From assembly GCA_947627725.1 (NCBI GenBank), contig CANQXE010000012.1, positions 1 to 64,000 on the forward strand: a stretch of 64,000 nucleotides of DNA, read 5' to 3'. Positions 10,295-41,490 of the stretch are shown one piece after another; position 1 is the stretch's first letter; each line of letters starts with the position of its first letter. Made by a program: the position numbers and the translations under genes. The notes beneath the pieces are model-generated. The model saw nothing but the letters and a program-made list of their open reading frames with translations. It had not been told where the DNA came from and ran no database searches. Source of the stretch: an uncultured Clostridia bacterium. GTDB taxonomy: Bacteria > Bacillota > Clostridia > Oscillospirales > Acutalibacteraceae.

Positions 10295-11158
10295 ATGAAA
10301 AAGTATTTTAAGAGGAGTATCGCACTGATTTTATCTGTCCTGATGCTGACATGCAATTTACCTTTTGTATCATTCGCGGCAGAGAATGAGGGAATTAAAA
10401 TTTCTTCAAATATCAGTGTATCGGATGTCGAAATAGACAGCGGTATAGAATTTACATACTATATTGAAATTGACGGGCAGCCGTACAACGGAACTGCGTC
10501 CGGCAGCGACGCTGAAACTTATGACGTTACCGACGGTTATCTCACAATGCCGTACAACGTAAGCGCTGTTATCAGCGACATTCCTGACGGCGCGTATTAT
10601 AGCGTTAAGAGGCTCGCGTACGACAATGACAAGTATGCTCTTATTAAGGAAACCGATCCTCAGGAGGGCGAATTTTCAAATAAGGAATATTTTGTAACTG
10701 TTGACGGCGGTGAAAGACAGCGAATCACTTCGGCTGAATATAATGCGGCAACAGGCGGTGAGGATAAAACCGTTACGCTTTACCAGGATGAAGAAGGCAA
10801 GACATATGATGAAGATAAGCTTACATCTGTTAAGGCTTGGGATGCGGTTCAGACAAAGAATGCTCTTGGTAATAACGAATATTCTGTTGAGGAAAAGGAC
10901 TTTACCTATGTAACCGATTCTCTTGAAGAATATGATATAACCTACAGTATTGATAAGAGTTATAAAAAGAGTTTTATTACTAATATATTCAGCGCCAATG
11001 TTACAATCGGAATTGAAGGTTATGAGCTTGGCGCAGATGTTGAAACAAGCAATAAACCGGCAGACGGCAACAGCACAACCAAGAAAACCGCGAGAGAAGC
11101 TATTATTAACAATGTTAAGACAAGTATGATAAAGGCTTGCGTACAGAGTTCTCACTGA
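10295..11158 (+). CDS. Exported Cna-B-type surface protein, N-terminal part (frameshifted)
   Basis: Begins with a clear signal peptide (KKYFKRSIALILSVLMLTCNLPFVSFAA) and continues as a beta-rich extracellular region to residue 287. Reading stops at 11156-11158 with the tail CVQSSH. The reading frame that continues the protein (AYRVLTENIKALTGKTAVLD) is open from 11133 in another frame and leads into the next entry. Removing a single T near 11138 would join the two into a protein of about 1,380 residues. So this is probably the 5' part of one broken gene, or a sequencing error. Starts after AAAGGGG. Confidence 0.75.
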   Translation: MKKYFKRSIALILSVLMLTCNLPFVSFAAENEGIKISSNISVSDVEIDSGIEFTYYIEIDGQPYNGTASGSDAETYDVTDGYLTMPYNVSAVISDIPDGAYYSVKRLAYDNDKYALIKETDPQEGEFSNKEYFVTVDGGERQRITSAEYNAATGGEDKTVTLYQDEEGKTYDEDKLTSVKAWDAVQTKNALGNNEYSVEEKDFTYVTDSLEEYDITYSIDKSYKKSFITNIFSANVTIGIEGYELGADVETSNKPADGNSTTKKTAREAIINNVKTSMIKACVQSSH

Positions 11159-11231: not shown

Positions 11232-14200
11232 ATGTGGAGCGATGACACGGAAACCCTTACATACACAGCAAAGGCGCACGGCTTTAAAGAGGTTACAGAG
11301 CATACATATGTTTATGAGTCCGAATCTGTTTCGGCTCTCAAGGATATAGCCTTTGACGCCGTGTTTGCTCCTGCGCCTACAGGCAGCTTTACAGTTGATT
11401 TTATGCTTTATGACGGAGCTCTTCCCGTAGCTTATGACGGTGCGAACTTTGAGGTTCGTGACAGCGACGGAAAGCTTCTTACTCCGGTTAATGAGGAGAC
11501 CGGAATTGGAGATTATACTCTTGAAGTAAAAAATGACAGCTACAATATACCGATTTTAGGCTCTATCGGATTTACAAAGTATATATTTTCCGGCTTGAAG
11601 TACGGTACATACACAATTCAGCAGACTTCCAGTGAAGATGGATTTGTAGTTGATAAGACAGCGTACGAGTTTAACGTCGCGAGAGAGGACGGAGCTGTAA
11701 CAGGTGATAAATTTGCAAAATCCAGTTTTGGCTCTTATACAGCGTTAACCAATAATACCTACAGCTTTGGGGCAACCTTTAAGGTATTTAAAAACAACAG
11801 CATCTCAATCAGCTTCCATAAGGTTGACCAGAATGACGAGCCGGTAGTGGGCGCGGATTTCTTGCTGATTGACAGAGACGGTCTTATTCAGTTTGTAAAA
11901 GATTTGGCAGGCGCGGCGCCTGACATCGTTGGCGGATTGGATTTTAACAGCATTCTTGAGCAGCTTTCGGGTACAGACTGGTCCAACATTGATGTCGGAA
12001 CGATTATCGGTCTTATTCTTTCAATTGCGACTATAAATCCTTCACTTCTTCCTGAAATTACAATACCGGCAATTTTAACATCAACCTCTGACGAAAACGG
12101 TCTTGTTGAGCTGAACAATTCCAAAAATATGTTAAATACACTTGGTACTGTTCTGGACAGCGGCGTTGTTTCAGGTGAGCAGCTTGCGCAGGTAATTGAG
12201 TCGGTTTTCGGCAATGTTATTCCGGAAGAATATTTACCGCTGCTTACTAAGCTTGCTGAAATGAGCGATAATATTAATGTTACAACAGGCTTTAAAGCAG
12301 GCTCATATATTATGATTGAGACTTCGGCTCCCTTTGGCTATGATAGAAATTCTACAATTCTTACATTTACGCTCAATAATGACGGAACGGCATATGTAAG
12401 CACAGGTGTTATCTTCCCCGTAATTGTTGACGCTCTTAACAATCGTTTTGATATTGATATAACCGAGTTCATTGTTACAGAGGAGCAATTTGAACAGTAC
12501 AAAGAGCAAATCGGAAATGCATTTACTGATTTTAATGAATATGCTGATTATGTACTCGGAAATGTTATTGATTTCGTCGGTGAAATATTCGGAGAAGACA
12601 ATCAGGTTTCAAACGTTCTTGATAATATCAGAAATAATTTAGACGGTTATTATAACAGGTATGAAAATCTTGCAGACGCAATCGGCGGACTTGTTAAGGA
12701 AGTAAACAACGCTATATCTCAGGATATAAATGAAGATTTCCGTTATATCGACACAAGATATTTTGTTAATATTGATATTAATATAGCTGATTGTAAAGGC
12801 AACGCGATAGATAATGTTCAATACACTGTTACTGATTCAGAGGGAAATGAGATTGAGCTTAACGAGGATGGAGTATCGGTTACAGTTCCGTTTGGTGATT
12901 ATTCAATAGCTGTTACCGCTCCTGAAGGATATTCACTTGATGATGAATCTGCAGTGACAACTGTAACAGTTAACGACGCTAAAAAAACGTACTCATTTGA
13001 TTTATCTTATCACAAACTCGGTGAGCCTGTTTACGACAGAATAGAGCCGACTTGTGAAGAGGGAGCTTCCGATATAACGAGAGTTTATTGTTCACTTTGC
13101 GAAGCGCTTGTTTCTAAGGTGATTACTCCTGATAAATCAGCTCCCGCGCTTGGTCACGATTACAAGGGCACAGTTACACAGGGTACTGACGGTGAGAACC
13201 ATACAGTACAGTGTACAAGATGCGACAGCACAACGCAAGTTCCATGTACATGGGATGAGATAGATTCGGGATTTGCTCCGAAAGTCGGTGTACCCGGTAA
13301 GGAAGCTGTTTACCAGTGTACTGTTTGCGGTCAGACAAAGGGAGGCAATGAAATTCCCGCTCTTAATCCGAATGTAACAATCGTTTCCAAGCCGCTTGGC
13401 TCAACGGAAGTTAAGTACTACAAAAACGGTGTTCTTACCACCGAAAGTGTTCCGGCAGCCGAGTACGGCACAGCTAACCTGAATATTCATGCTGATTATG
13501 ATACACAGATTGTTCTTACAGCTACACCTGTTGACGGTTCCTCCTTTGTTGGCTGGATGGTTAACACCGCGCTTTTAGGCGGTGGAAAAAACAATAATCC
13601 TCATAGCGCAACAGTTCTTGCCGATATCACATATGAGCCTATATTCCAGGAGGATGAATCTTCAGAGTTTACAGTTGTATTTGCGGATAAGTATGGCAAT
13701 ATTTTCAATACGCAGACTGTAACAAGCGGTGATGAAATTGTAATTCCCGATGGTCCTGTTGTAGCAGGTCAGACATTTACCGGATGGTCATTAACAGATG
13801 AGCAGATTCATGCTCTTACATCAGCCGCAACAATCTATGCTAATTATGAGATAAATGCAGATCAAACATATACAGTGACCGCAGTCGGAGCAACCATTTC
13901 AACTCCTGACAGTGAAGCTCAGGATGAGCTTGACGGAATCATTTACAGTGCTCTGGTAACGGTAACAGCGCCCGGTGCAAAGGCTTGGAAAATAGGCGAC
14001 GCAATCGTTGCTTACGGCGAGTCATATACCTTCTATTTAGGCGCGGATGTTACACTCACATTTGAAACTGAAAGTGTAACAGAAACCCCTGCGGTAGCGG
14101 CTGTTTCTACAACCCAAATCGGCGCGGATGGCAATATCAAGGCATCATTTCTTGCTACGCGTACAATGGTAGAGGGTTATACATATGTAAATGCCGGTTT

Positions 14201-14438
14201 CATATACAGTACCAGTGCTGACACCGGCGAGCTTACCCTTGGCAACGTAGACCAGTCATCTATCAAAGCCTGCTATTGCACAACAGAGGTAGAGCAATTT
14301 GCGTTGAACTTAGGTCGTACATCACAGGCAGGTAAGATTTATGCAAGAGCATTCCTTGCTTACGTTGATCAGTCAGGTTCAGGTGCAACAGAAATTGTTT
14401 ATACCGATTTTGACCCATTTGATTACGACGTATTATAA
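11232..14438 (+). CDS. Surface protein with SpaA/Cna-B and InlB-type repeats, C-terminal part
   Basis: This frame is open from 11133; the 11232 ATG is only the first in-frame ATG and has no good ribosome-binding site. Seen in order: Cna-B/SpaA-like modules (SFTVDFMLYDGALPVAYDGA near the start, ISISFHKVDQNDEPVVGADF about 195-215, ending at IMIETSAPFGYD with the Glu used in isopeptide bonds); a third Cna-B-like stretch near 520; Cys-pair segments (CSLCEALV, CTRCDS, CTVCGQ); then an InlB-type repeat (VVFADKYGNIF...FTGWSL). There is no LPXTG motif or C-terminal membrane anchor. It is probably an exported adhesin or matrix protein, non-functional unless the frameshift is bypassed. A leader-like peptide gene follows 29 bases later. 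Confidence 0.75.
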   Translation: MWSDDTETLTYTAKAHGFKEVTEHTYVYESESVSALKDIAFDAVFAPAPTGSFTVDFMLYDGALPVAYDGANFEVRDSDGKLLTPVNEETGIGDYTLEVKNDSYNIPILGSIGFTKYIFSGLKYGTYTIQQTSSEDGFVVDKTAYEFNVAREDGAVTGDKFAKSSFGSYTALTNNTYSFGATFKVFKNNSISISFHKVDQNDEPVVGADFLLIDRDGLIQFVKDLAGAAPDIVGGLDFNSILEQLSGTDWSNIDVGTIIGLILSIATINPSLLPEITIPAILTSTSDENGLVELNNSKNMLNTLGTVLDSGVVSGEQLAQVIESVFGNVIPEEYLPLLTKLAEMSDNINVTTGFKAGSYIMIETSAPFGYDRNSTILTFTLNNDGTAYVSTGVIFPVIVDALNNRFDIDITEFIVTEEQFEQYKEQIGNAFTDFNEYADYVLGNVIDFVGEIFGEDNQVSNVLDNIRNNLDGYYNRYENLADAIGGLVKEVNNAISQDINEDFRYIDTRYFVNIDINIADCKGNAIDNVQYTVTDSEGNEIELNEDGVSVTVPFGDYSIAVTAPEGYSLDDESAVTTVTVNDAKKTYSFDLSYHKLGEPVYDRIEPTCEEGASDITRVYCSLCEALVSKVITPDKSAPALGHDYKGTVTQGTDGENHTVQCTRCDSTTQVPCTWDEIDSGFAPKVGVPGKEAVYQCTVCGQTKGGNEIPALNPNVTIVSKPLGSTEVKYYKNGVLTTESVPAAEYGTANLNIHADYDTQIVLTATPVDGSSFVGWMVNTALLGGGKNNNPHSATVLADITYEPIFQEDESSEFTVVFADKYGNIFNTQTVTSGDEIVIPDGPVVAGQTFTGWSLTDEQIHALTSAATIYANYEINADQTYTVTAVGATISTPDSEAQDELDGIIYSALVTVTAPGAKAWKIGDAIVAYGESYTFYLGADVTLTFETESVTETPAVAAVSTTQIGADGNIKASFLATRTMVEGYTYVNAGFIYSTSADTGELTLGNVDQSSIKACYCTTEVEQFALNLGRTSQAGKIYARAFLAYVDQSGSGATEIVYTDFDPFDYDVL

Positions 14439-14467: not shown

Positions 14468-14581
14468 ATGAAAGAGTTTTATACAAAGCCTTCAACTGAG
14501 GTGCAAAAGTTTAATACAGTTGATTTTGTTACAACAAGCGGCGGTAAAATTGAGGATCTTGTTCCACCGGATGAAGTATAA
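14468..14581 (+). CDS. Leader-like 37-residue peptide, possible RiPP precursor
   Basis: Starts with ATG after AAGGAGAA, 29 bases past the surface protein, and ends just before a strong terminator, so it is a translated gene. The peptide has M-K-E-x-Y-x-K-P at its start, Glu11, Phe15, then Thr-Val-Asp (17-19) and T-T-S-G-G (22-26), and ends in an acidic, Pro-containing tail (from Gly26). A second peptide with the same spacing of these residues lies at 41365-41490. A PqqD-family protein is encoded 180 bases downstream. No Cys is present. A modified-peptide precursor is a reasonable reading but unproven. Confidence 0.65.
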   Translation: MKEFYTKPSTEVQKFNTVDFVTTSGGKIEDLVPPDEV

Positions 14582-14590
14582 TAATTAAAA

Positions 14591-14617
14591 AGGGCGGCAG
14601 AAATGCCGCTCTTTTTA
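14591..14617 (+). terminator. Intrinsic terminator after the short peptide
   Basis: A 9-bp GC-rich stem (14591-14599 with 14604-14612) and a run of T follow the peptide stop by ten bases. Confidence 0.9.
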
Positions 14618-14705
14618 GTTAGGGAGTGTAATATAAAAAATGAAAGGAATAATTTGAACGATTGCACACAGACTTGTAATACCGCTCTTGGTGTAATAAT
14701 AGCTA

Positions 14706-14734
14706 TTGAAATTTATAAAATTTTTTGGTAAAAT
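14706..14734 (+). promoter_or_regulatory. Probable promoter of the PqqD-family gene
   Basis: TTGAAA (14706-14711), a 17-base spacer and TAAAAT (14729-14734) lie about 30 bases before the start codon, so the gene is transcribed independently of the peptide. Confidence 0.6.
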
Positions 14735-14763
14735 TTATATAATAATCAGTGAGGTTAATGTTT

Positions 14764-15030
14764 ATGAAAATAAAAGACGGATTCGCAAAAAGAAATATAG
14801 CGGGAGAAGAAATAGTTGTTCCCGTTGGAAAAACGGCGAAGAATTTTAACGGAATGATTACGCTTAATGAAAGCGGCGCATTTTTCTGGGATTGCTTTTG
14901 CAATGACATTTCAATTGATGACGCTGTGAAAATGGTAACCGATGAATATGAGGTTGATGAGGAAACGGCGAGAAGGGATATCCAGAACTTTGTTAAAATG
15001 CTCAAGGATAATGACCTTGTTGTTGAGTGA
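14764..15030 (+). CDS. PqqD-family protein (RiPP recognition element fold)
   Basis: An 88-residue protein of the PqqD superfamily. Features are a start FAKRNIAGEEIVVPVG, the central LNESGAFFWDCF segment typical of these small winged-helix proteins, and a C-terminal helix pair (DDAVKMVTDEYEVDEETARRDI). In RiPP pathways this fold binds the leader of a precursor peptide. Three in-frame starts exist; the ATG at 14764 has GAGGT at the best distance. No radical-SAM or cyclase gene is adjacent in this window. Binding to the upstream peptide is inferred from position and fold. Confidence 0.8.
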   Translation: MKIKDGFAKRNIAGEEIVVPVGKTAKNFNGMITLNESGAFFWDCFCNDISIDDAVKMVTDEYEVDEETARRDIQNFVKMLKDNDLVVE

Positions 15031-18301: not shown

Positions 18302-21300
18302 TTATTTGTATGTAAATTCCGAGGTTTCAGAGTTTATAAAGTTCTTAAAGAACTGCTTAATGCTGTCATATTTGCTGTCCTTATTTATCATAGCATAATC
18401 CTTAGCATTGACGTAACCGTCATTATTTACATCAAATACGAGAACGGGGATATTGATTGTTTCGTCGCCCAAAACCTGTTTTGTAACAGTTCGGTCTACT
18501 ATACCGTCCTTACTTAGGGTAATTTCATATGTCCTGTTATTTTCAAGCTCCATTGTAAGATTACCCTGATCGTCTGTTGTACCCTTAAGGTCTCCGTCAA
18601 CATAAACATTAACACCGCCGAATGCGATATTGCCTGTTTCCGAGTCGGGAGTTTCAAGAACCGTTGAATTAACAGATACCGTGCTCACCATCGGAATACC
18701 GTTTATTTCAATTGAGTTGATACCTGTGTTGCCCTTTGTTACAAGCTCAAGCTCTGTACCGTCAACGCTCTCTCCGCCGTTGATGAATACCTTGATATAA
18801 AGCTTTTCCTGATTACTGCATTCATCGGGAAGAGGGAGATTGCCGTATGTTTCAACAGTATCCGTCGATGAATCATTGCTGATTGCGCGTGCATTTGAAT
18901 TTTCAACATATTTATAGCTTCTGCCGTCAAGGCTGTATGCAATACCCCAGTCACGAGGACCTTTGTTTGAGCTGAGCTGCTCAAGGTTAAGAGTAAGGTC
19001 ATTATAACCGAGCGTGCTTGTTTCAATGAGCCAATAGCCGTTATCATTAGGATTATCAAGCTTTTTACTTGCAACGTATGGATTTAACGCATCCCAAGCA
19101 ACCTTAACACCGTAAGTTCCCGTGTAGTCAAGAATTGCCGGAGCAGAGGCATTCGGATACATTGAAAGAGTACCTTTATTTGCACCGCTTGAATTTGATA
19201 CAGAAAGGAAGTCGGAGCTTACATAATCAGTAAAGAGCTTTGTTGTGCTGTTATAATTAAACTTAACAACGGTATCGCCTTTATAGTAATATGTTTTTCT
19301 GTTTACAATGCTTGAGTCCTCGTCTTCAACAGCGCTGATTATTACAGTATACGCTTCCTGTGTGCCGTTTCTGAAGCCGTTGACGGTTGAAAGCTGAATA
19401 CCTGTCGAAGGATATGTACCGCTCTGAACGATAGTATCGTGGCTGTCAATAACCGCGTACTGCATCGGCAATGAGTCGGGACTGTAATATTCAATTACTC
19501 CGTTATTTCCGAAATAGCTTGTTGATTTGTTTGTATACGGCATTTTGTATGTACCGTTATCCTCGCCTGCGATTATAACATCGTTTACGTAAAGGTTACC
19601 CTTTGATTCATTGTTGAAAAGCGATGTACCGCTGAAGGTGGAATTTTCGGTAGTCGCAAGGCGTATGTAAAGCTCAGCTAAATTACCGCAAGCGGCAGGA
19701 AGCTTGGTTGTGAGAAATACCTGCTCAAGCGTTGCGTTTGCGTTAAGCGCAACATTTGTTTTTACATCAATAAATTTAATGCCGTCTGTACTGTACTGAA
19801 GAGTAATGCTCTTAGGACCGTAGTTTGTTGTGTAAGCCTTACACGAAAAATTGATGTTATCATATCCCGCTGTGCTTACCTTATATGTAAATCCTGAGCT
19901 GTTGCTCCACTTCGCGCCGTCATCAGGTGATATGCAGAAGGAGCCGTTATCAGCTCGCCAGAGCGGAACATACTGAGATACTCCGTCAGTATATGCCGTC
20001 ATTCTTCCGCTTTGACCGTATGTACCGCCTGTTGACGCAACTTCGCCCGATGTTACGTCTGCGCTGTAATCCTCATAGGTGAAGTTAATAATATCCACAC
20101 CGCCGAAGGTGAAGGTGCTTGAGGCAGTAGGGCTTACAATATCCCCAAACTGTGAATAAGCGGTAATTGCTACGGTGTCGCCGACCTTTGCGGTTTTGGC
20201 ATCAAAGGGATTGAAAGGTCCGCTGTAAAGAGAGGGCTCTGAGCCGTTTACTGTATAGAATACGTCCGCACCGCCGTTATTGTCGGTAATAGTGATTAAA
20301 CTGTCATTATAAACGGGCTCGCTTCCTGTAATCGTCGGCTCATAAAGCTCTGTTACTACTGAGAGTGACGAGCCTGTGACCCTGATGTTGTTTACGGCGG
20401 CGTCACCGCTTGTCTGATTAACAACTGTGCTTGTACCGTTAATAGCAATATCCGCGAAAACTACCATTCTTATATACACTTTTCTCTGGTTGTTACAATC
20501 GGCGGGAAGCATTACATTGTCAAATGCAAGCTCCATATTCTTATTGTTAATTATTGAATAGGACGCGTTCGCAATATCAGTATAATCACTGCCGTCAAGG
20601 CTGTACTGAAGCTTCCAGTCTCTCGGAGCTTTCTTTGTACCGCCGAGCTTTGCGCTGAATTTAATATTTTCAAATCCCGCAGTGGAAACGACTGTTTCAA
20701 AATACGGATAGGTACCCCAAGCAAGCGAGTCGGTTTTAGATGTACCCATTATAGGCGCCTGGTCGGACATAACTGTGTTTAAGTCATTATCATATAAATC
20801 CGCTGTGCCTGACCATTTTATTTTTGCGATGTCAGTTGCGTTTACGGAAGCATAGAGATTTGCGGAGCTTTGATTTTCTCCGCCGGTTGCCCTGTAATAA
20901 TACTCCGCACCCGTAGGATCTGCCGTAACAAGTGCAGTGCTGTCTGCCGTATAGTCATAATCCCACGAAGCGATTGTTTTTGTATAGCCTGTCGGTCTGT
21001 CTCCCGCAAGCACTGTGCAGGTGTTGGAGGTTACACTTCCCGTTAAATTTGTTCCGTCGCCTGTTGCAATCACAGTCAGCGCCGTTCCTACATCATCGGC
21101 AGTTGTAATATAACTGCTTGAGGTTGCGCCGTTAATTGCCGTGTTGTCCCTGTACCATTGATAATTTACGGATTTTTCAATATTCTTACCGTTTGCATCG
21201 GTCAGAGTTGCCAAAAGCTCCGTATTTGTGTAGGCATTGCTTTCAATAGTCAGCGTACCGCCCGAAATATCCGATTTAACGATCTGGAAGGTTTTATTTA

Positions 21301-23485
21301 CGGAACCTGTATATGTTCCTGTACCTGTTATTGTTACTGTTGCTGTACCGACATTGATATTGTTATCGTATGTAAGCTTGTAGTCAAGACCTTCCTGAAG
21401 TGTTTCCGCTCCCTGACCTGTAACAGTAATGCTTGGTGTGATTTCCTCACCCGTATAATGCTGATCCGGTATTGTACCAAATGAGGCAGTGTTTATGTCT
21501 GTCTTTTCAATCTGGCTGTCAATCCACTGTGAACGCTCATTAAACCACGTCGTCATTAAGCTTATATGATTATCCGTGTCATAATCTGCGAGGTCAAGCC
21601 GAAGCGCATCCATTATCGCGCTTTTCTCAACGGTTTTAATGTATTCCTGTGCTGACTTTAAAGTACCTGTTTTATCTTCGGCTTTGCCTGTAATAATTTG
21701 AACGGCAGGCTCAATGTATGCGTACCAGTATTTCTCAGCCATTGTCCAGAAATCCGAACAGTTTGTGGCAAGCGCGCCGTAGAATGAAAGCGGTGACTGA
21801 TTATCACTTGAATAGCTTGTTGAACTGTCTTTTGATCTCCAGCGGTAAATTCGTGTGTTTTTTGTGTACCAGCCGTCCGTTGATGTCCAGCTATGACCCC
21901 AGCGCGAGCCGCTTGTTCCGTAACCGATAGAATTATCCATATCCCACATCGGTCCTGCATAAAGCTTTGAGTCGATGGAATCGGAATCCTTATAAAAATA
22001 GGTGGAAGAAGTAGAGGAGTCCATATTTTTAAAGAATTCCTGCGTCCAGTAATATTTTACCGCTGAATCTGCGTCAAGCAGATCACTCCATGCCATTCCC
22101 TGATATTGAACTGCGGGAGCAGGATTTGTTATAGAGCGCGGACCGTAAGTTAATTCCGAAAGTGAACTAAGTCCAGAACAATTTGTTGTAACAGACGCGC
22201 TCGGAACAATACCGTTGTTATATAATGATGAACCAAGCGCATAGAGCAAATCGTAACTATAGTTTACCATATTTTCAGACGTATAGTCGGCGCTTTTGAT
22301 AACCCAGCCCTGTCTGTTAAACGCACAGAAACCCGCGTTTTCCTCAACCCATCGGTTGCTGATTTCAAGCTCATAAAGGTAACCGCCTGTGTAATCGGAC
22401 GGTTCTGTAAGAGAAGGGGAATATCTCTTTGAGCTTACGCTGTGGTCGGGTAAATTAGTTATATTTGTTCCGATTGAGTTCGGGTTATATGTCGTTACCG
22501 CAGTACCTGTCAGATCTCCGGGAATAACCGCTCCCGTTGTATCATCTACTGTGCCGTTTGCAATTTCAAGATTTTCGTAAGCGTCCGTAACGTCAATTCT
22601 GTTTGATTTGATTTCCACTCTTTCGGAAAGCTGATAGGAGCCTATGTACTGCTGATTGACATAAAGGTCAACGGGCTTACAAATCGGCTGATATTTCACT
22701 CCGATATATTTTGCGAAATCATATGTAAGCTGATTTTTAACGAGTGAACTGTCAGTGGTATTTGCAAGCAGGCACCATTTTTTAGCGGCGCCCATATTTA
22801 AAAGAGATGTGGATTTTGCAAGCTTGATATTATATGGATTCTTTTTGTTGTCTGTACTCCATGTGCCGTTACCGCGTCCGGACATTTTTTCCATAACACC
22901 CATATAGTCAACCTTGCCGTTTGGCTGCACGACCATTATTGTACCTGCCTCTGAAGCGGAGTGGTCGCCGCTGTTTGTTATTGTTTTGAGCGAGCCGGAT
23001 TCTGTGTCAATATAGACAGTACCTACATCACCGCTCTTGAGGACGGTTACATCATAATCAGTACCGTTAACGGTAAATGTAGCCGACTCGGTTACTCCGC
23101 CGGCGTCAATACCGGCAAAAATATCTGTTGTCATACCGCTCGTGAGTTCAGTACCGTTTATTGAAGCCGTGCCCTCAAACCAGAATCTGAGCGCGGACAA
23201 ATCAGCGTTTGACGGTAAAAATAAATAATACTTAGTTGAGCTTGTACTTCTCTTATACGGCTGAATACCTCCGAGAGCCGCAAGCTTGTTTCCGTTAGCG
23301 GAAAAATCAGTTATATCCTGCTGATTCAATACATTTTCGGGATCAGCCCAAATACTTATGTTTGAGTCTTCCAGCGTTAACGGAGATTGGGCTGCTGACG
23401 CGTTGATAGGTGAAATCAGTAATGTTGTAAAAAGCATTACTGATACGATCAGCAGAGAAACCGATTTTTTTAATATCCCTTTCAT
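18302..23485 (-). CDS. Large exported CotH-kinase-family protein with C-terminal dockerin-like motif
   Basis: A 1,727-residue secreted protein. A signal peptide (1-32) is followed by a CotH domain (about 150-660) with GRGNGTWSTDNKKNPYNIKL, KKWCLLANTTDSSLVKNQL and the acidic active-site-like WDMDNSIGYG. CotH proteins are atypical kinases first described on spore-coat proteins. After that come Ig-like domains (HYTGEEITPSITVTG onward), three related beta-sandwich modules (each with LQYSxDG or similar), a chitobiase-type module (FYTVNGSEPSLYSGPF), and a carboxypeptidase-regulatory-like domain. The end carries one dockerin-type calcium loop (DVNNDGYVNAKDYAMI). It is the last gene of a four-gene unit with VTC, DUF4956 and a carbohydrate-binding protein. 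AGGAGG precedes ATG. Confidence 0.9.
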   Translation of the reverse strand: MKGILKKSVSLLIVSVMLFTTLLISPINASAAQSPLTLEDSNISIWADPENVLNQQDITDFSANGNKLAALGGIQPYKRSTSSTKYYLFLPSNADLSALRFWFEGTASINGTELTSGMTTDIFAGIDAGGVTESATFTVNGTDYDVTVLKSGDVGTVYIDTESGSLKTITNSGDHSASEAGTIMVVQPNGKVDYMGVMEKMSGRGNGTWSTDNKKNPYNIKLAKSTSLLNMGAAKKWCLLANTTDSSLVKNQLTYDFAKYIGVKYQPICKPVDLYVNQQYIGSYQLSERVEIKSNRIDVTDAYENLEIANGTVDDTTGAVIPGDLTGTAVTTYNPNSIGTNITNLPDHSVSSKRYSPSLTEPSDYTGGYLYELEISNRWVEENAGFCAFNRQGWVIKSADYTSENMVNYSYDLLYALGSSLYNNGIVPSASVTTNCSGLSSLSELTYGPRSITNPAPAVQYQGMAWSDLLDADSAVKYYWTQEFFKNMDSSTSSTYFYKDSDSIDSKLYAGPMWDMDNSIGYGTSGSRWGHSWTSTDGWYTKNTRIYRWRSKDSSTSYSSDNQSPLSFYGALATNCSDFWTMAEKYWYAYIEPAVQIITGKAEDKTGTLKSAQEYIKTVEKSAIMDALRLDLADYDTDNHISLMTTWFNERSQWIDSQIEKTDINTASFGTIPDQHYTGEEITPSITVTGQGAETLQEGLDYKLTYDNNINVGTATVTITGTGTYTGSVNKTFQIVKSDISGGTLTIESNAYTNTELLATLTDANGKNIEKSVNYQWYRDNTAINGATSSSYITTADDVGTALTVIATGDGTNLTGSVTSNTCTVLAGDRPTGYTKTIASWDYDYTADSTALVTADPTGAEYYYRATGGENQSSANLYASVNATDIAKIKWSGTADLYDNDLNTVMSDQAPIMGTSKTDSLAWGTYPYFETVVSTAGFENIKFSAKLGGTKKAPRDWKLQYSLDGSDYTDIANASYSIINNKNMELAFDNVMLPADCNNQRKVYIRMVVFADIAINGTSTVVNQTSGDAAVNNIRVTGSSLSVVTELYEPTITGSEPVYNDSLITITDNNGGADVFYTVNGSEPSLYSGPFNPFDAKTAKVGDTVAITAYSQFGDIVSPTASSTFTFGGVDIINFTYEDYSADVTSGEVASTGGTYGQSGRMTAYTDGVSQYVPLWRADNGSFCISPDDGAKWSNSSGFTYKVSTAGYDNINFSCKAYTTNYGPKSITLQYSTDGIKFIDVKTNVALNANATLEQVFLTTKLPAACGNLAELYIRLATTENSTFSGTSLFNNESKGNLYVNDVIIAGEDNGTYKMPYTNKSTSYFGNNGVIEYYSPDSLPMQYAVIDSHDTIVQSGTYPSTGIQLSTVNGFRNGTQEAYTVIISAVEDEDSSIVNRKTYYYKGDTVVKFNYNSTTKLFTDYVSSDFLSVSNSSGANKGTLSMYPNASAPAILDYTGTYGVKVAWDALNPYVASKKLDNPNDNGYWLIETSTLGYNDLTLNLEQLSSNKGPRDWGIAYSLDGRSYKYVENSNARAISNDSSTDTVETYGNLPLPDECSNQEKLYIKVFINGGESVDGTELELVTKGNTGINSIEINGIPMVSTVSVNSTVLETPDSETGNIAFGGVNVYVDGDLKGTTDDQGNLTMELENNRTYEITLSKDGIVDRTVTKQVLGDETINIPVLVFDVNNDGYVNAKDYAMINKDSKYDSIKQFFKNFINSETSEFTYK

Positions 23486-23534
23486 TTTTAACCTCCTGTA
23501 AGGCAGTAGAATTTTGACATCAATAATTTATATA

Positions 23535-25499
23535 TCAGAAGGACACCGTACCCAAATTTGCGTTCCAGGTTATATCCTTTGTACTGCCGCTTGAGCTTGT
23601 TACACGGTTCACACTTACAGGTGAACATATAAACGCGTTTGCACTTTCTGATTTTACGTTACCTACTGTAAAGACGCAAGGCTTTGATGAAGCGGAAGAG
23701 GTAGTAACCAATACTGTTTTCTGAGAGCCGTTTTGGGGTTTGGTGTTCTGATTACCCGACGCGGTTACCTTGCCGCCGTTAATTCTGAAAATCCCCTTGG
23801 GATTTCCCTTTATCACCTTTCTTACTTTAAGAGCGTATTTTCCTCTGGTAAGAGCCGATACGTCAAGTGTGCCGCCTGTTATAAGTATTATCTCGTCTGA
23901 GTCAATACCGTCCGCGCAATTCGTTTCGTTAAACGACATGATTTTGATTTTAGCCTCAGGTGCTGTTTCGGTCTTGGCGCCCTCAAATTCAAATTTATTG
24001 CAGTGAATGCCGTCGCCTGTTGATTCAATATTTAAATTTGCGCCTGCTTCAACTGTTACTTTCTTATCACAGGAAATACCCTGTTTTGCCTTGCTGATAA
24101 TATTTAAAGAAGCATTTTTAATCGTTATTGATTCGGTTGAGCAGATACCGCTCAGGCTTTCGCCGCCGTCAATTTTAGCTGTGCCGTGTCCTTTGATACC
24201 GAGCTTGCATTCGCTGTAAATTGTACCGTTTTTACCGCTTCCGCCCGCTCTGAAACTGTTATTGTCGCCTGTAATGGAAAATTCAACGCTCGGTGCGGCG
24301 GTAACGGTTGATGAGCCTGTTGTTCCGCCTACACCCGTTTCCTCGCCGTCGGATTCCTTATCCTTTTCGGCATCCGCGTTTGTAAATTTGATTGCGGTTT
24401 TTTTAGAGGTTGAAATATTTACGTTATAAACCTTGACTTCAACATCCTCTTCAACTGAAAATCTGAATTCAAGCTGTCCTGCAAAAACGTCTGTCCGGGA
24501 TGTTACATAATATTTGCTGAATTCTCCGGCGCCGTTTACAATTACTTCCGTGCCGCCGTTTACGGCAGATGCCTCTTTAACCGTGACGTTTGAAGCGTTG
24601 CAATCGACCTTACCGTTATCTTTTAAAACAATAGGAATGTAGTCAATCTGTTCCTGAGGAGAGGTCGGATTATTGCTTCCGCTGTTTCCGCCCTGATTCT
24701 GACTGCCGCTGTTATTCCCGTTACTGTTACCGCTGTTGTTATTACTGTTATTACTGCCGCCGTTATTCTGAGATGAAGGCTTTTTATTTGTTGAAGGCGT
24801 TTCCTTTTTTGCATCTTCAACAACCTGAGAAAGATTTTTTGAGTTTTTTGAATCCGATGCCTCTGTTTTTTTGCCGTTCTCATCAACAACTGTTGTGGTC
24901 TTTTTATCCTGCGACTTTTCAACAGTTACGTTAATCAGCTTGCCCTTTTCATCCTTTTCAAGCTTAATGAAAAGATTTTTATGGCTGTCAAGCTTTGTAG
25001 TTACCTTGAAATATTCCTGTGTGTTCTTGTCACGGTCGATATCAATTGTATCCTGAATAGCGATTATATATCCGTTTTTATCACTAAGCGCTGTCATTGT
25101 GACAAGCTTGTTGTCGGATGAATATCTAAGAGAGCAGTTTTTTTCCTTGTCTACGTTAAGAGCAACAACCATTTTGATATATGGATAGGTTTTCTGGGTG
25201 AGCGCCTTGCCGTTTTTATCCTTTGCGGATTCGATATATCCGGCAACAACTGAAACTCCGTCTGTATTATAAACGGGTAAAATAGTTAAAACATTTCCCG
25301 ATTTATCCTTAAGCTCAATTGTGGATTCTTCTTCGTCATCAATCGTAACCTTTACTGCATCGTCCTTGTCCTTAACCTCAACAACTTTTGATGTAGTTGA
25401 CGCTGCCATCTCGTCAGCCTTTTTTGGTGAACAGGCAGTAAGAACAGCGCATAAAATCGAGACAGTCAGTAAAACCGCTATAGTCTTTTTAATTGTCAT
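23535..25499 (-). CDS. Carbohydrate-binding lipoprotein (Cthe_2159-like)
   Basis: A 654-residue lipoprotein with lipobox LTAC (Cys23). The first 200 residues are beta-rich, followed by a long low-complexity Ser/Asn/Gly linker (about 230-285). The C-terminal 350 residues form a parallel beta-helix-like region: GTAKIDGGESLSGICSTESITIKNASLNI, GISCDKKVTVEAG and NCADGIDSDEIILITGGTLDVSA. These match the Cthe_2159 family, whose founding member binds cellulose and polygalacturonate. It may also bind calcium through the Asp-rich turns. Lies between the CotH and DUF4956 genes on one transcript, so the four proteins probably work together at the cell surface. Confidence 0.8.
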   Translation of the reverse strand: MTIKKTIAVLLTVSILCAVLTACSPKKADEMAASTTSKVVEVKDKDDAVKVTIDDEEESTIELKDKSGNVLTILPVYNTDGVSVVAGYIESAKDKNGKALTQKTYPYIKMVVALNVDKEKNCSLRYSSDNKLVTMTALSDKNGYIIAIQDTIDIDRDKNTQEYFKVTTKLDSHKNLFIKLEKDEKGKLINVTVEKSQDKKTTTVVDENGKKTEASDSKNSKNLSQVVEDAKKETPSTNKKPSSQNNGGSNNSNNNSGNSNGNNSGSQNQGGNSGSNNPTSPQEQIDYIPIVLKDNGKVDCNASNVTVKEASAVNGGTEVIVNGAGEFSKYYVTSRTDVFAGQLEFRFSVEEDVEVKVYNVNISTSKKTAIKFTNADAEKDKESDGEETGVGGTTGSSTVTAAPSVEFSITGDNNSFRAGGSGKNGTIYSECKLGIKGHGTAKIDGGESLSGICSTESITIKNASLNIISKAKQGISCDKKVTVEAGANLNIESTGDGIHCNKFEFEGAKTETAPEAKIKIMSFNETNCADGIDSDEIILITGGTLDVSALTRGKYALKVRKVIKGNPKGIFRINGGKVTASGNQNTKPQNGSQKTVLVTTSSASSKPCVFTVGNVKSESANAFICSPVSVNRVTSSSGSTKDITWNANLGTVSF

Positions 25500-25520
25500 T
25501 GTACTGTTTACCTTCCTGAA

Positions 25521-26231
25521 TTACTGAAAATGAAAGTTCTTAACAGCGGGGACTTCGGTTGACAGCATAATTTTAAGATTTCCGTTCATTTTTCTCAGTT
25601 CGTCAATCATTTCACGCATCTGCTTATCGTCTTTCAAATCAACACTGAAGGAAAGCTCAAACAAAGCTCCGAAATCAACTGATTTAACTCTTGTAAGCTT
25701 AAATTTGTTAGTGTATTTTTTTAGTGTTTCGTCAAACGCACCGACATAATTGAGGGTTTCGGGAACGGTGATGCTTAATGTGTATGTATCGCCCTTTTTA
25801 CTCGCAAAGTTTGTAAGATACAGCACAATGATGAGTACGCATATAACAATTGTTGCAATGCCTGCATACAGCCAGTAGCCCATACCGCAGGCAAGACCCA
25901 TAACAACGCTGAGGAAAACGAAAGCGATATCCTTGGGATCTCCGGGCGCGCTGCGGAAACGGATAAGCGCGAATGCGCCCGCAAGGCTGAAGGCTCTTGC
26001 AACATTGTTTCCTATAAGCAGTATTACCATGCCGACAATCGGCGCAAGTAAAATGAGAGCAACACAAAATGCTTGGCTGTAGCCCTCTTTCCTGTGTGTA
26101 ATCAAATAAACGACGCTGATAACAGCTCCGATTACAATTGATGAAAGCAAAATCTCAAGAACGCTTGTAATTGTCAGTGATTCTGCAATTTCCCCTGTTG
26201 CCGCTGATGCGAAAAAGTCATTAAAGCTCAT
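25521..26231 (-). CDS. DUF4956 membrane protein
   Basis: A 236-residue protein with about four hydrophobic segments in its first 145 residues and a soluble C-terminal domain. The conserved DUF4956 block is AFSLAGAFALIRFRSAPGDPKDIAFVFLSVVMGLACGMG (about 85-122). The family is unannotated functionally but is regularly encoded beside VTC-type polyphosphate polymerases and CotH proteins, as here. The stop of the VTC gene is 11 bases upstream. A role in supplying or exporting the VTC product is plausible, not shown. Confidence 0.85.
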   Translation of the reverse strand: MSFNDFFASAATGEIAESLTITSVLEILLSSIVIGAVISVVYLITHRKEGYSQAFCVALILLAPIVGMVILLIGNNVARAFSLAGAFALIRFRSAPGDPKDIAFVFLSVVMGLACGMGYWLYAGIATIVICVLIIVLYLTNFASKKGDTYTLSITVPETLNYVGAFDETLKKYTNKFKLTRVKSVDFGALFELSFSVDLKDDKQMREMIDELRKMNGNLKIMLSTEVPAVKNFHFQ

Positions 26232-26242
26232 ATGAATCTCCT

Positions 26243-27019
26243 TTATTTAAAATAGTCAAAATCGACTTCGTTTCCGCCGCTGTCTGTCAAATGGTATTTG
26301 AGCAGTCCGTTCTGCGCGTCCCGCTTGAATTTAACACCGTATTTTGAAAAACCGTGGCTGAACAATTCGTTTTCGCTTAATATATGTGTAAGCCATAAAG
26401 GCATAGCACCGAGAATTTTAATTTCCATAATATATTCGCCGTTTGGAAGAAGCAGTTCATCCTCATCGCTTTCGCCGAAGACAAAGTTATGCCTGCGTGT
26501 GCGGATATTTCTGTCAAAGGTCATTCTGAAATTTTTATCCTCTTTGCCGAAAAGAGCCAGCCTGTCATACTGAACATAAAGTGCGGGATGCACCTTGTTC
26601 ATACTGAAATAATACTGAAGCTCTTTTGCAACCTGAGTTGAAAGATAGTCCTTTGTCTCAGGTAATATTCCTTCGTTTACAAACGGCTCAATCTCTTTAA
26701 TTTTAAGCTTGATTCTTCGTTTATTGCCCTGTCCGTCACATTTTTTCTTTATTTCCATAAAGATTTTGTCCTCAGGGTCTTTAAGGTCATAATAAGAACG
26801 GATTCTCATTTTTTCCTTATAAACAGGCTTTGATGAATTTTGCCTTATAACATCATGGTTATCCGTGTCATAATAAATGCTGTAAATTCTGTATTCATTA
26901 CCGTTTAAGCAGAAAGGGTCAAGCTCCATATGCTCAAGAAGCAAAGGGAGAATTTTATCAAGTTTCTCCTTTGTTATTAAATATTTTTTCTCATAACGCT
27001 TAAAGGTGGCAATTGCCAA
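26243..27019 (-). CDS. VTC-domain polyphosphate polymerase-like protein
   Basis: A 258-residue VTC domain: FKRYEKKYLITKEKLDKIL, YRIYSIYYDTDNHDVIRQNS, EKMRIRSY, FMEIKKKCDG (Lys/Arg lining of the tunnel) and EYIMEIKI at the end. VTC domains make polyphosphate from nucleotide triphosphates in yeast; bacterial members are assigned by homology. Start is TTG at 27017-27019; a GGGGGGG ribosome-binding site six bases before it supports this unusual start, and no ATG fits. First gene of the four-gene unit, downstream of a near-consensus promoter. Confidence 0.85.
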   Translation of the reverse strand: MAIATFKRYEKKYLITKEKLDKILPLLLEHMELDPFCLNGNEYRIYSIYYDTDNHDVIRQNSSKPVYKEKMRIRSYYDLKDPEDKIFMEIKKKCDGQGNKRRIKLKIKEIEPFVNEGILPETKDYLSTQVAKELQYYFSMNKVHPALYVQYDRLALFGKEDKNFRMTFDRNIRTRRHNFVFGESDEDELLLPNGEYIMEIKILGAMPLWLTHILSENELFSHGFSKYGVKFKRDAQNGLLKYHLTDSGGNEVDFDYFK

Positions 27020-41364: not shown

Positions 41365-41490
41365 CTAACCTAAATCTTCATCTCCGCCGTCAACATGACC
41401 TTCACCGCCGTCGCCGTAGCTTGTTGTAATTACATCAACGGTTTTAAATTCATCAAGTTCTGCAACAGGCTTTAAATACGTTTCTTTCAT
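41365..41490 (-). CDS. Leader-like 41-residue peptide, relative of the 14.47 kb peptide
   Basis: ATG at 41490 follows GGAGGTG by seven bases; the gene ends before a strong terminator, so it is a free-standing expressed unit. It shares with the other peptide M-K-E-x-Y-x-K-P, Glu11, Phe15, Thr-Val-Asp at 17-19 and Thr-Thr-Ser at 22-24. After this block the tail is very different: rich in Gly and Asp with one His (from Tyr25). A conserved leader with a variable acidic tail is what one expects of modified-peptide precursors or secreted signals. No maturation gene is adjacent; an IS remnant lies upstream. Confidence 0.6.
   Translation of the reverse strand: MKETYLKPVAELDEFKTVDVITTSYGDGGEGHVDGGDEDLG

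Follow-up and report, generated by a model that had tools for sequence, protein, structure and literature searches.

Linear polyphosphorylated peptides (LPPs) are a RiPP family that was described in May 2026 from the lpp cluster of Paenibacillus alginolyticus (PMC13381572). As set out in the main text of that paper, residues Asp70 and Asn33 of LppB hold the leader Tyr and Pro, the phosphoserine of LppA stands at Tyr+18 and its E-2 at Tyr+14 distance. The biological role of LPPs is given there as unknown, and the main text uses none of the terms Clostridi-, Ruminococc-, 'secreted' and 'surface' (PMC13381572); a literature search on the family recognized no other paper, and other literature may exist. 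The system that we describe here has the component kinds presented for LPP, namely a precursor, a discrete RRE, an HprK-like kinase, an SpI-like peptidase, an NTP transferase and an MsbA-like exporter, and it shares the Tyr-x-x-Pro leader, the RRE residues Asn33 and Asp70, the acid at −2 and the Ser just behind it (PMC13381572). It differs from the published account in that the leader is without the Px9Fx[T/A] motif of Bacilli precursors, the spacing between Tyr and Ser exceeds that of LppA by one residue, about a dozen precursors are dispersed, compared with one to three per LPP cluster, the enzymes of the source genome are spread over four loci and the precursors are paired with secreted proteins (PMC13381572). 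Paeninodin-like lasso peptides, as treated in the same text, also combine a kinase, an NTP transferase, a discrete RRE and a Y/WxxP leader (PMC13381572), whereas here no B2 was found in 16 genomes, the leaders carry Tyr and the RRE residues are of the LPP type. Prochlorosins, in the account of PMC10783134, likewise have one modifying enzyme for many precursors, but are lanthipeptides made by ProcM, with enzymes unrelated to those here.

We analysed a stretch of 64,000 nucleotides from an uncultured Clostridia bacterium (the window; its genome is called the source genome below) that contains the following features.

10295..11158, + strand: first reading frame of a secreted protein gene, with an N terminus that by eye resembles a signal peptide
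11232..14438, + strand: main frame of the same gene, with a SpaA domain and weak InlB-type repeats
14001..14435, + strand: C-terminal domain (A6) common to the secreted partners
14468..14581, + strand: LPP-like precursor peptide gene, 37 aa
14582..14621, + strand: terminator-like hairpin that closes the unit of secreted protein and peptide
14764..15030, + strand: PqqD-type discrete RRE (LppB-like), 88 aa from ATG
41365..41490, − strand: second precursor relative, 41 aa, standing alone

A sequence-only reading of this DNA had proposed a 37-residue peptide gene with a ribosome-binding site and a terminator, followed by a PqqD-family gene, as a possible new RiPP system. The genes that it observed are confirmed, and its interpretation is supported in part. 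AGGAG precedes the peptide ORF (14468-14581) at a longish spacer, and the hairpin directly 3′ of it is stable (−25.3 kcal/mol, z = −7.8 against 200 shuffles). The peptide matched no family in Pfam or NCBIfam at E values up to 1 and, judged by eye, has no signal peptide. When we searched the source genome with it, 11 places were recovered (the window copy at 8e-21, ten others at 6e-6 to 0.002), comprising 10 intact genes of 34–41 codons, window copy included, and one start-less fragment; the weak match at C5:53542 and the fragment at C1:145049 were left out of the study. Together with a copy on C6 that was found through the partner domain (see below), the source genome holds at least 11 intact relatives. 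All have the leader in common and vary in their acidic tails; ten positions (M1, K2, Y5, K7, P8, F15, D19, T22, T23 and S24) are invariant in the 10 aligned intact copies, and YxxP is present in the window peptide and the 10 aligned source-genome copies. Since the search returned 11 places and 10 invariant positions, the peptide is no chance ORF. Its parts are a leader of residues ~1–20 with Tyr5 and Pro8, a candidate phospho-Ser24 and an acidic tail (25–37). Prochlorosin precursors are reportedly scattered too, and we know of no link of prochlorosins to secreted proteins.

A looser search of 120 genomes of the family and 295 of the order (148 genera) detected relatives in 16 and 74 of them, respectively, with up to 12 matches per genome. 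Among 86 distinct leaders, all carry the Tyr, 83 the Pro, 77 an acid at Tyr+14 and 70 a Ser at Tyr+19, counts that are conditional on the collecting pattern [YW]xx[PL] and on the Tyr leaders with which the search model was trained. None of 90 precursor ORFs, some of which are the same gene twice, has the Px9Fx[T/A] motif of Bacilli. Going by this absence and by the residues of leader and RRE, we regard the system as LPP-like in its working, though not a strict member, and probably a sister branch. In the tails, a Trp or Phe lies within the last five residues in 56 of 84 cases, compared with 29.4 ± 4.1 after shuffling (maximum 42), and this is a firmer signal than the tail signature D[ND]?[DEN].{1,7}[WF], which we set aside as weak (28/84 against 18.1 ± 3.4) because 1000 shuffles reach 29. 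Sequence conservation also bears on the idea that the peptide ORF, as the short last frame of its transcription unit, is a regulatory or translational element tuning expression or termination. Its place, with a long gene in front and a strong hairpin behind, would suit such a role, but the amino acids are conserved across an order, one source copy stands alone and others lie among enzyme genes, and we regard this explanation as very improbable.

The sequence-only reading had also described a PqqD gene with its own promoter 180 bases behind the peptide gene. The gene is there: its ORF (14764-15030) starts 182 bp downstream and matches PF05402 at 1.3e-16. The promoter did not hold up, as the consensus match (10/12 at 14706-14734) is not above chance in a region with 3 such sites against 2.6 expected. 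Asn35 and Asp72 of the window RRE correspond to Asn33 and Asp70 of LppB; the profile aligns them with LppB (9x8z), and in the paeninodin RRE (9x90) these positions are Gly and Gln. Equivalents of both LppB residues were present in 16 of 16 hand-picked RREs, the window RRE included, and in a second set the Asn was kept in 28 of 28 and the Asp in 25 of 28.

These residues count against a lasso precursor, in which a B2 cysteine peptidase, guided by the RRE, would remove the leader before a C protein closes the macrocycle. Resemblance to lasso systems is seen in three respects: the Tyr-x-x-Pro leader, matches of the window RRE to lasso PqqD models (1.9e-9 and 2.6e-9, below their cut-offs) and its predicted fold (pLDDT 89, TM ~0.8 to lasso RRE–leader complexes). 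However, B2 (PF13471) was detected in 0 of 16 precursor genomes at E 0.001, and on this result we rejected a lasso identity; 15 of the 16 have an archaeal/SipW-type SpI peptidase, of which a seed member matches TIGR02228 at 9.5e-5, below its cut-off. All 86 leaders carry Tyr and none Trp, in a search model trained on Tyr leaders. We consider a lasso precursor improbable.

All six kinds of LPP component have counterparts in the source genome, mostly scattered. The earlier suggestion that the modifying enzymes are encoded elsewhere gains indirect support: the HprK-like kinase is on C1, 163 bp behind another precursor; the SpI-like peptidase (1.8e-34 with alignment A3) is on C2, followed 6 bp on by an exporter of the same set (677 bits); and an NTP_transf_5 gene (PF14907, 5.9e-44) adjoins, on C14, the second of the two source RREs, the first being that of the window. 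About 0.8 kb from this second RRE lies a gene (L023 10697-11836, − strand) for a radical SAM protein whose C-terminal end matches a GNAT domain. The kinase was identified via relatives found beside RRE genes, with one in the source genome, and its name is a weak assignment from sub-threshold matches (Pfam Hpr_kinase_C at 0.0036 for one relative and none in another, NCBIfam ScmC at ~1e-6, below cut-off). The source genome does not have the one-cluster layout with one to three precursors. We did detect clustering in G020, G100, G057 and G014, where kinase–RRE–peptidase cassettes have an adjoining precursor and varying subsets of the kinase, PqqD-type RRE, SpI-like peptidase, NTP_transf_5 and MsbA-like exporter lie near the peptide. 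G372 has kinase and RRE adjacent, then genes that by eye resemble the peptidase and exporter, and its precursor is on another contig.

Precursors and enzymes co-occur over genomes. The kinase was found in all 16 precursor genomes of the family set and in 40 of the 104 others, and the RRE in 16/16 against 56/104. Of the 74 precursor genomes of the order set, 66 had the kinase (20 of the 221 others, p 2e-38) and 64 the RRE (21 of the 221, p 2e-35); because the genomes are related, all p values are optimistic. Eight of the 74 precursor genomes were without the kinase and ten without the RRE, some of these genomes being incomplete, and G362, with its 10 precursor matches, had neither. Looking out from 80 named kinase loci, we detected the RRE in 51, the peptidase in 35, the exporter in 21 and the NTP transferase in 10, with kinase, RRE, peptidase and exporter together in 16. 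Only 11 of the 80 loci gave a precursor match, weak in some cases, and the 11 loci closest to the source kinase gave none, which fits dispersed precursors and is no proof of them.

Of the claims made from the sequence, a precursor with leader and core and a PqqD-type RRE as its likely binder gained indirect support. A new kind of RiPP it is not, given the LPP family (PMC13381572). Homologues of the peptide near PqqD genes do exist: among the 150 listed precursors of the order, 17 (in 15 genomes) have an LPP-type PqqD gene no more than 5 kb away, where ~0.8 would be expected for 2-Mb genomes. The local pair in the window is another matter. Orthologues of its PqqD (63 and 70% identical) stand behind the same two upstream genes in G071 and G021. 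No precursor was detected in the 17 kb read in G071, and in G021 there is none up to the point where the contig stops, 156 bases after the PqqD orthologue. With orthologues that have no detected precursor, the PqqD beside the window peptide is probably an incidental neighbour, and most likely a unit of secreted protein and precursor happens to adjoin a conserved RRE gene. That RRE and precursor belong together functionally, with enzymes elsewhere, is well supported by the genome-wide data. Beyond the RRE gene, the window carries on the − strand (18302-27019) a CotH kinase gene with a dockerin match below cut-off, a lipoprotein-like gene, a DUF4956 gene and a VTC-domain gene. G071 has the same gene order, RRE … CotH–lipoprotein–DUF4956–VTC, with 85% identity for VTC and 73% for DUF4956. 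We take the VTC domain to be a polyphosphate polymerase, and a polyphosphate link from this gene to the LPP-like system is tempting.

The telling neighbour of the window peptide, missed by the sequence-only reading, is the secreted protein encoded directly upstream. Because its main open frame begins at ~11133, the gene has a frame break near 11133-11158, for which sequencing error and decay are both candidates. In the source genome, 9 of the 10 intact precursors sit 2–29 bp behind a long gene. The start of seven of these nine reads as a signal peptide; the remaining two are the frame-broken window gene, with a signal-like start in its first frame, and a gene on C29 that is cut by the contig end. 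Of seven source partners that were scanned, six have leucine-rich repeats, five of these being subtilases (PF00082), and the seventh gave weak repeat matches only. We then took 40 regions from further genomes, each the best precursor match of its genome and chosen from the upper part of the precursor ranking, with the high-ranking G018, G121, G353, G383, G369 and G310 left out. Three contig edges, one region without an ORF and two upstream genes open at the contig end reduced these to 34 assessable precursors, of which 25 have an upstream neighbour with a signal-like start (22 within 40 bp), 6 have one without and 3 lack a same-strand neighbour. Signal peptides were called by a crude hydrophobicity rule; the background, partners included, was 152 of 579 ORFs of the loci (p 1e-8).

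The partners have the C-terminal domain A6 in common, for which searches gave nothing in PDB and nothing consistent in Pfam. Its predicted structure is all-beta at low confidence (pLDDT 62, best PDB match at E 0.035) and gives only a hint of an Ig/FN3-like sandwich. An HMM seeded with 8 source partners and iterated on the loci themselves matched 39 of the 68 partner ORFs in the fetched loci and 11 of the remaining 1813 ORFs, or 29 of 58 against the same 11 once the 10 source-genome rows are removed; some DNA is duplicated among the partner loci (window/L024, L131/L206, L088/L190) and among the others (L102/L220), and one of the 11 other ORFs (L312) does precede a precursor. We also searched 15 hand-chosen genomes with the domain only. 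In the source genome, all 10 matches were directly followed by a precursor; nine precede known ones and the tenth, on C6, precedes a precursor so far diverged that searching with the peptide had not revealed it. Matches followed by a precursor numbered 3 of 3 in G021 (with a fourth match truncated where its contig ends), 1 of 1 in G372 and 2 of 3 in G071, where one precursor was newly found in this way, and 1 of 5 in G206 and 0 of 2 in G362. The A6 model found nothing in the precursor genomes G050, G384 and G277, and the iterated model matches two partners in G050; no domain match was obtained in G007, G054, G101, G103, G142 and G208, six genomes that also lack a precursor match. The link between domain and precursor is looser outside the source genome.

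This pairing is also what favours an unmodified small protein that would serve the secreted protein as chaperone, inhibitor or subunit, the co-occurrence with LPP-type enzymes reflecting shared ecology. The tightest physical link is indeed to the secreted protein (10/10 source domain matches) and not to the enzymes, and most source precursors are far from enzyme genes. However, the leader keeps the RRE-binding pattern, precursors adjoin kinase–RRE–peptidase genes in the four genomes with cassettes, co-occurrence with the kinase over the 295 genomes of 148 genera has p 2e-38 (uncorrected for relatedness), and by eye the peptide is without a signal peptide of its own; we judge this explanation unlikely. 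Our preferred reading, to which we give a probability of roughly 0.72, is an LPP-type precursor whose RRE, kinase, peptidase and exporter act in trans as one set for about a dozen precursors, mostly paired with secreted proteins.

From the genes, residues, genome-wide co-occurrence and gene pairing observed here, we infer the biochemical steps, cut site, phosphosite and partnership outside the cell as follows. The PqqD-fold RRE would grip the leader at Tyr5-x-x-Pro8 and present the peptide to the HprK-like kinase, which would put one or more phosphates on Ser24. The SpI-like signal peptidase would cut near residue 20, the MsbA-like exporter would send the acidic core out and the NTP_transf_5 enzyme may add something further; about a dozen precursors would be served by this set in trans. 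Once exported, the peptide would have as its likely partner the C-terminal domain of the large secreted protein encoded directly upstream. A two-gene display module is a tentative extension, in which the exported phosphorylated peptide, perhaps further decorated, would bind or join the C-terminal domain of its partner and so fix, activate or tag it at the cell surface. If true, Clostridia would use LPP-type RiPPs as a system for partnering proteins and not as free natural products, and one enzyme set would serve many protein–peptide pairs. New here are LPP-like precursors as companion genes of secreted proteins, and their pairing with proteins that have a common C-terminal domain is a testable lead on the role of LPPs. 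Many such precursors would escape a search that looks only inside biosynthetic gene clusters or only for the leader motif of Bacilli.

Four precursor genes, two in the source genome (L013 and L021) and two in G021 (L143 and L144), are followed by a small lipoprotein-like gene, which in L013 and L021 ends in DGWI(T/N)KWY, and the unit may therefore have a third member.
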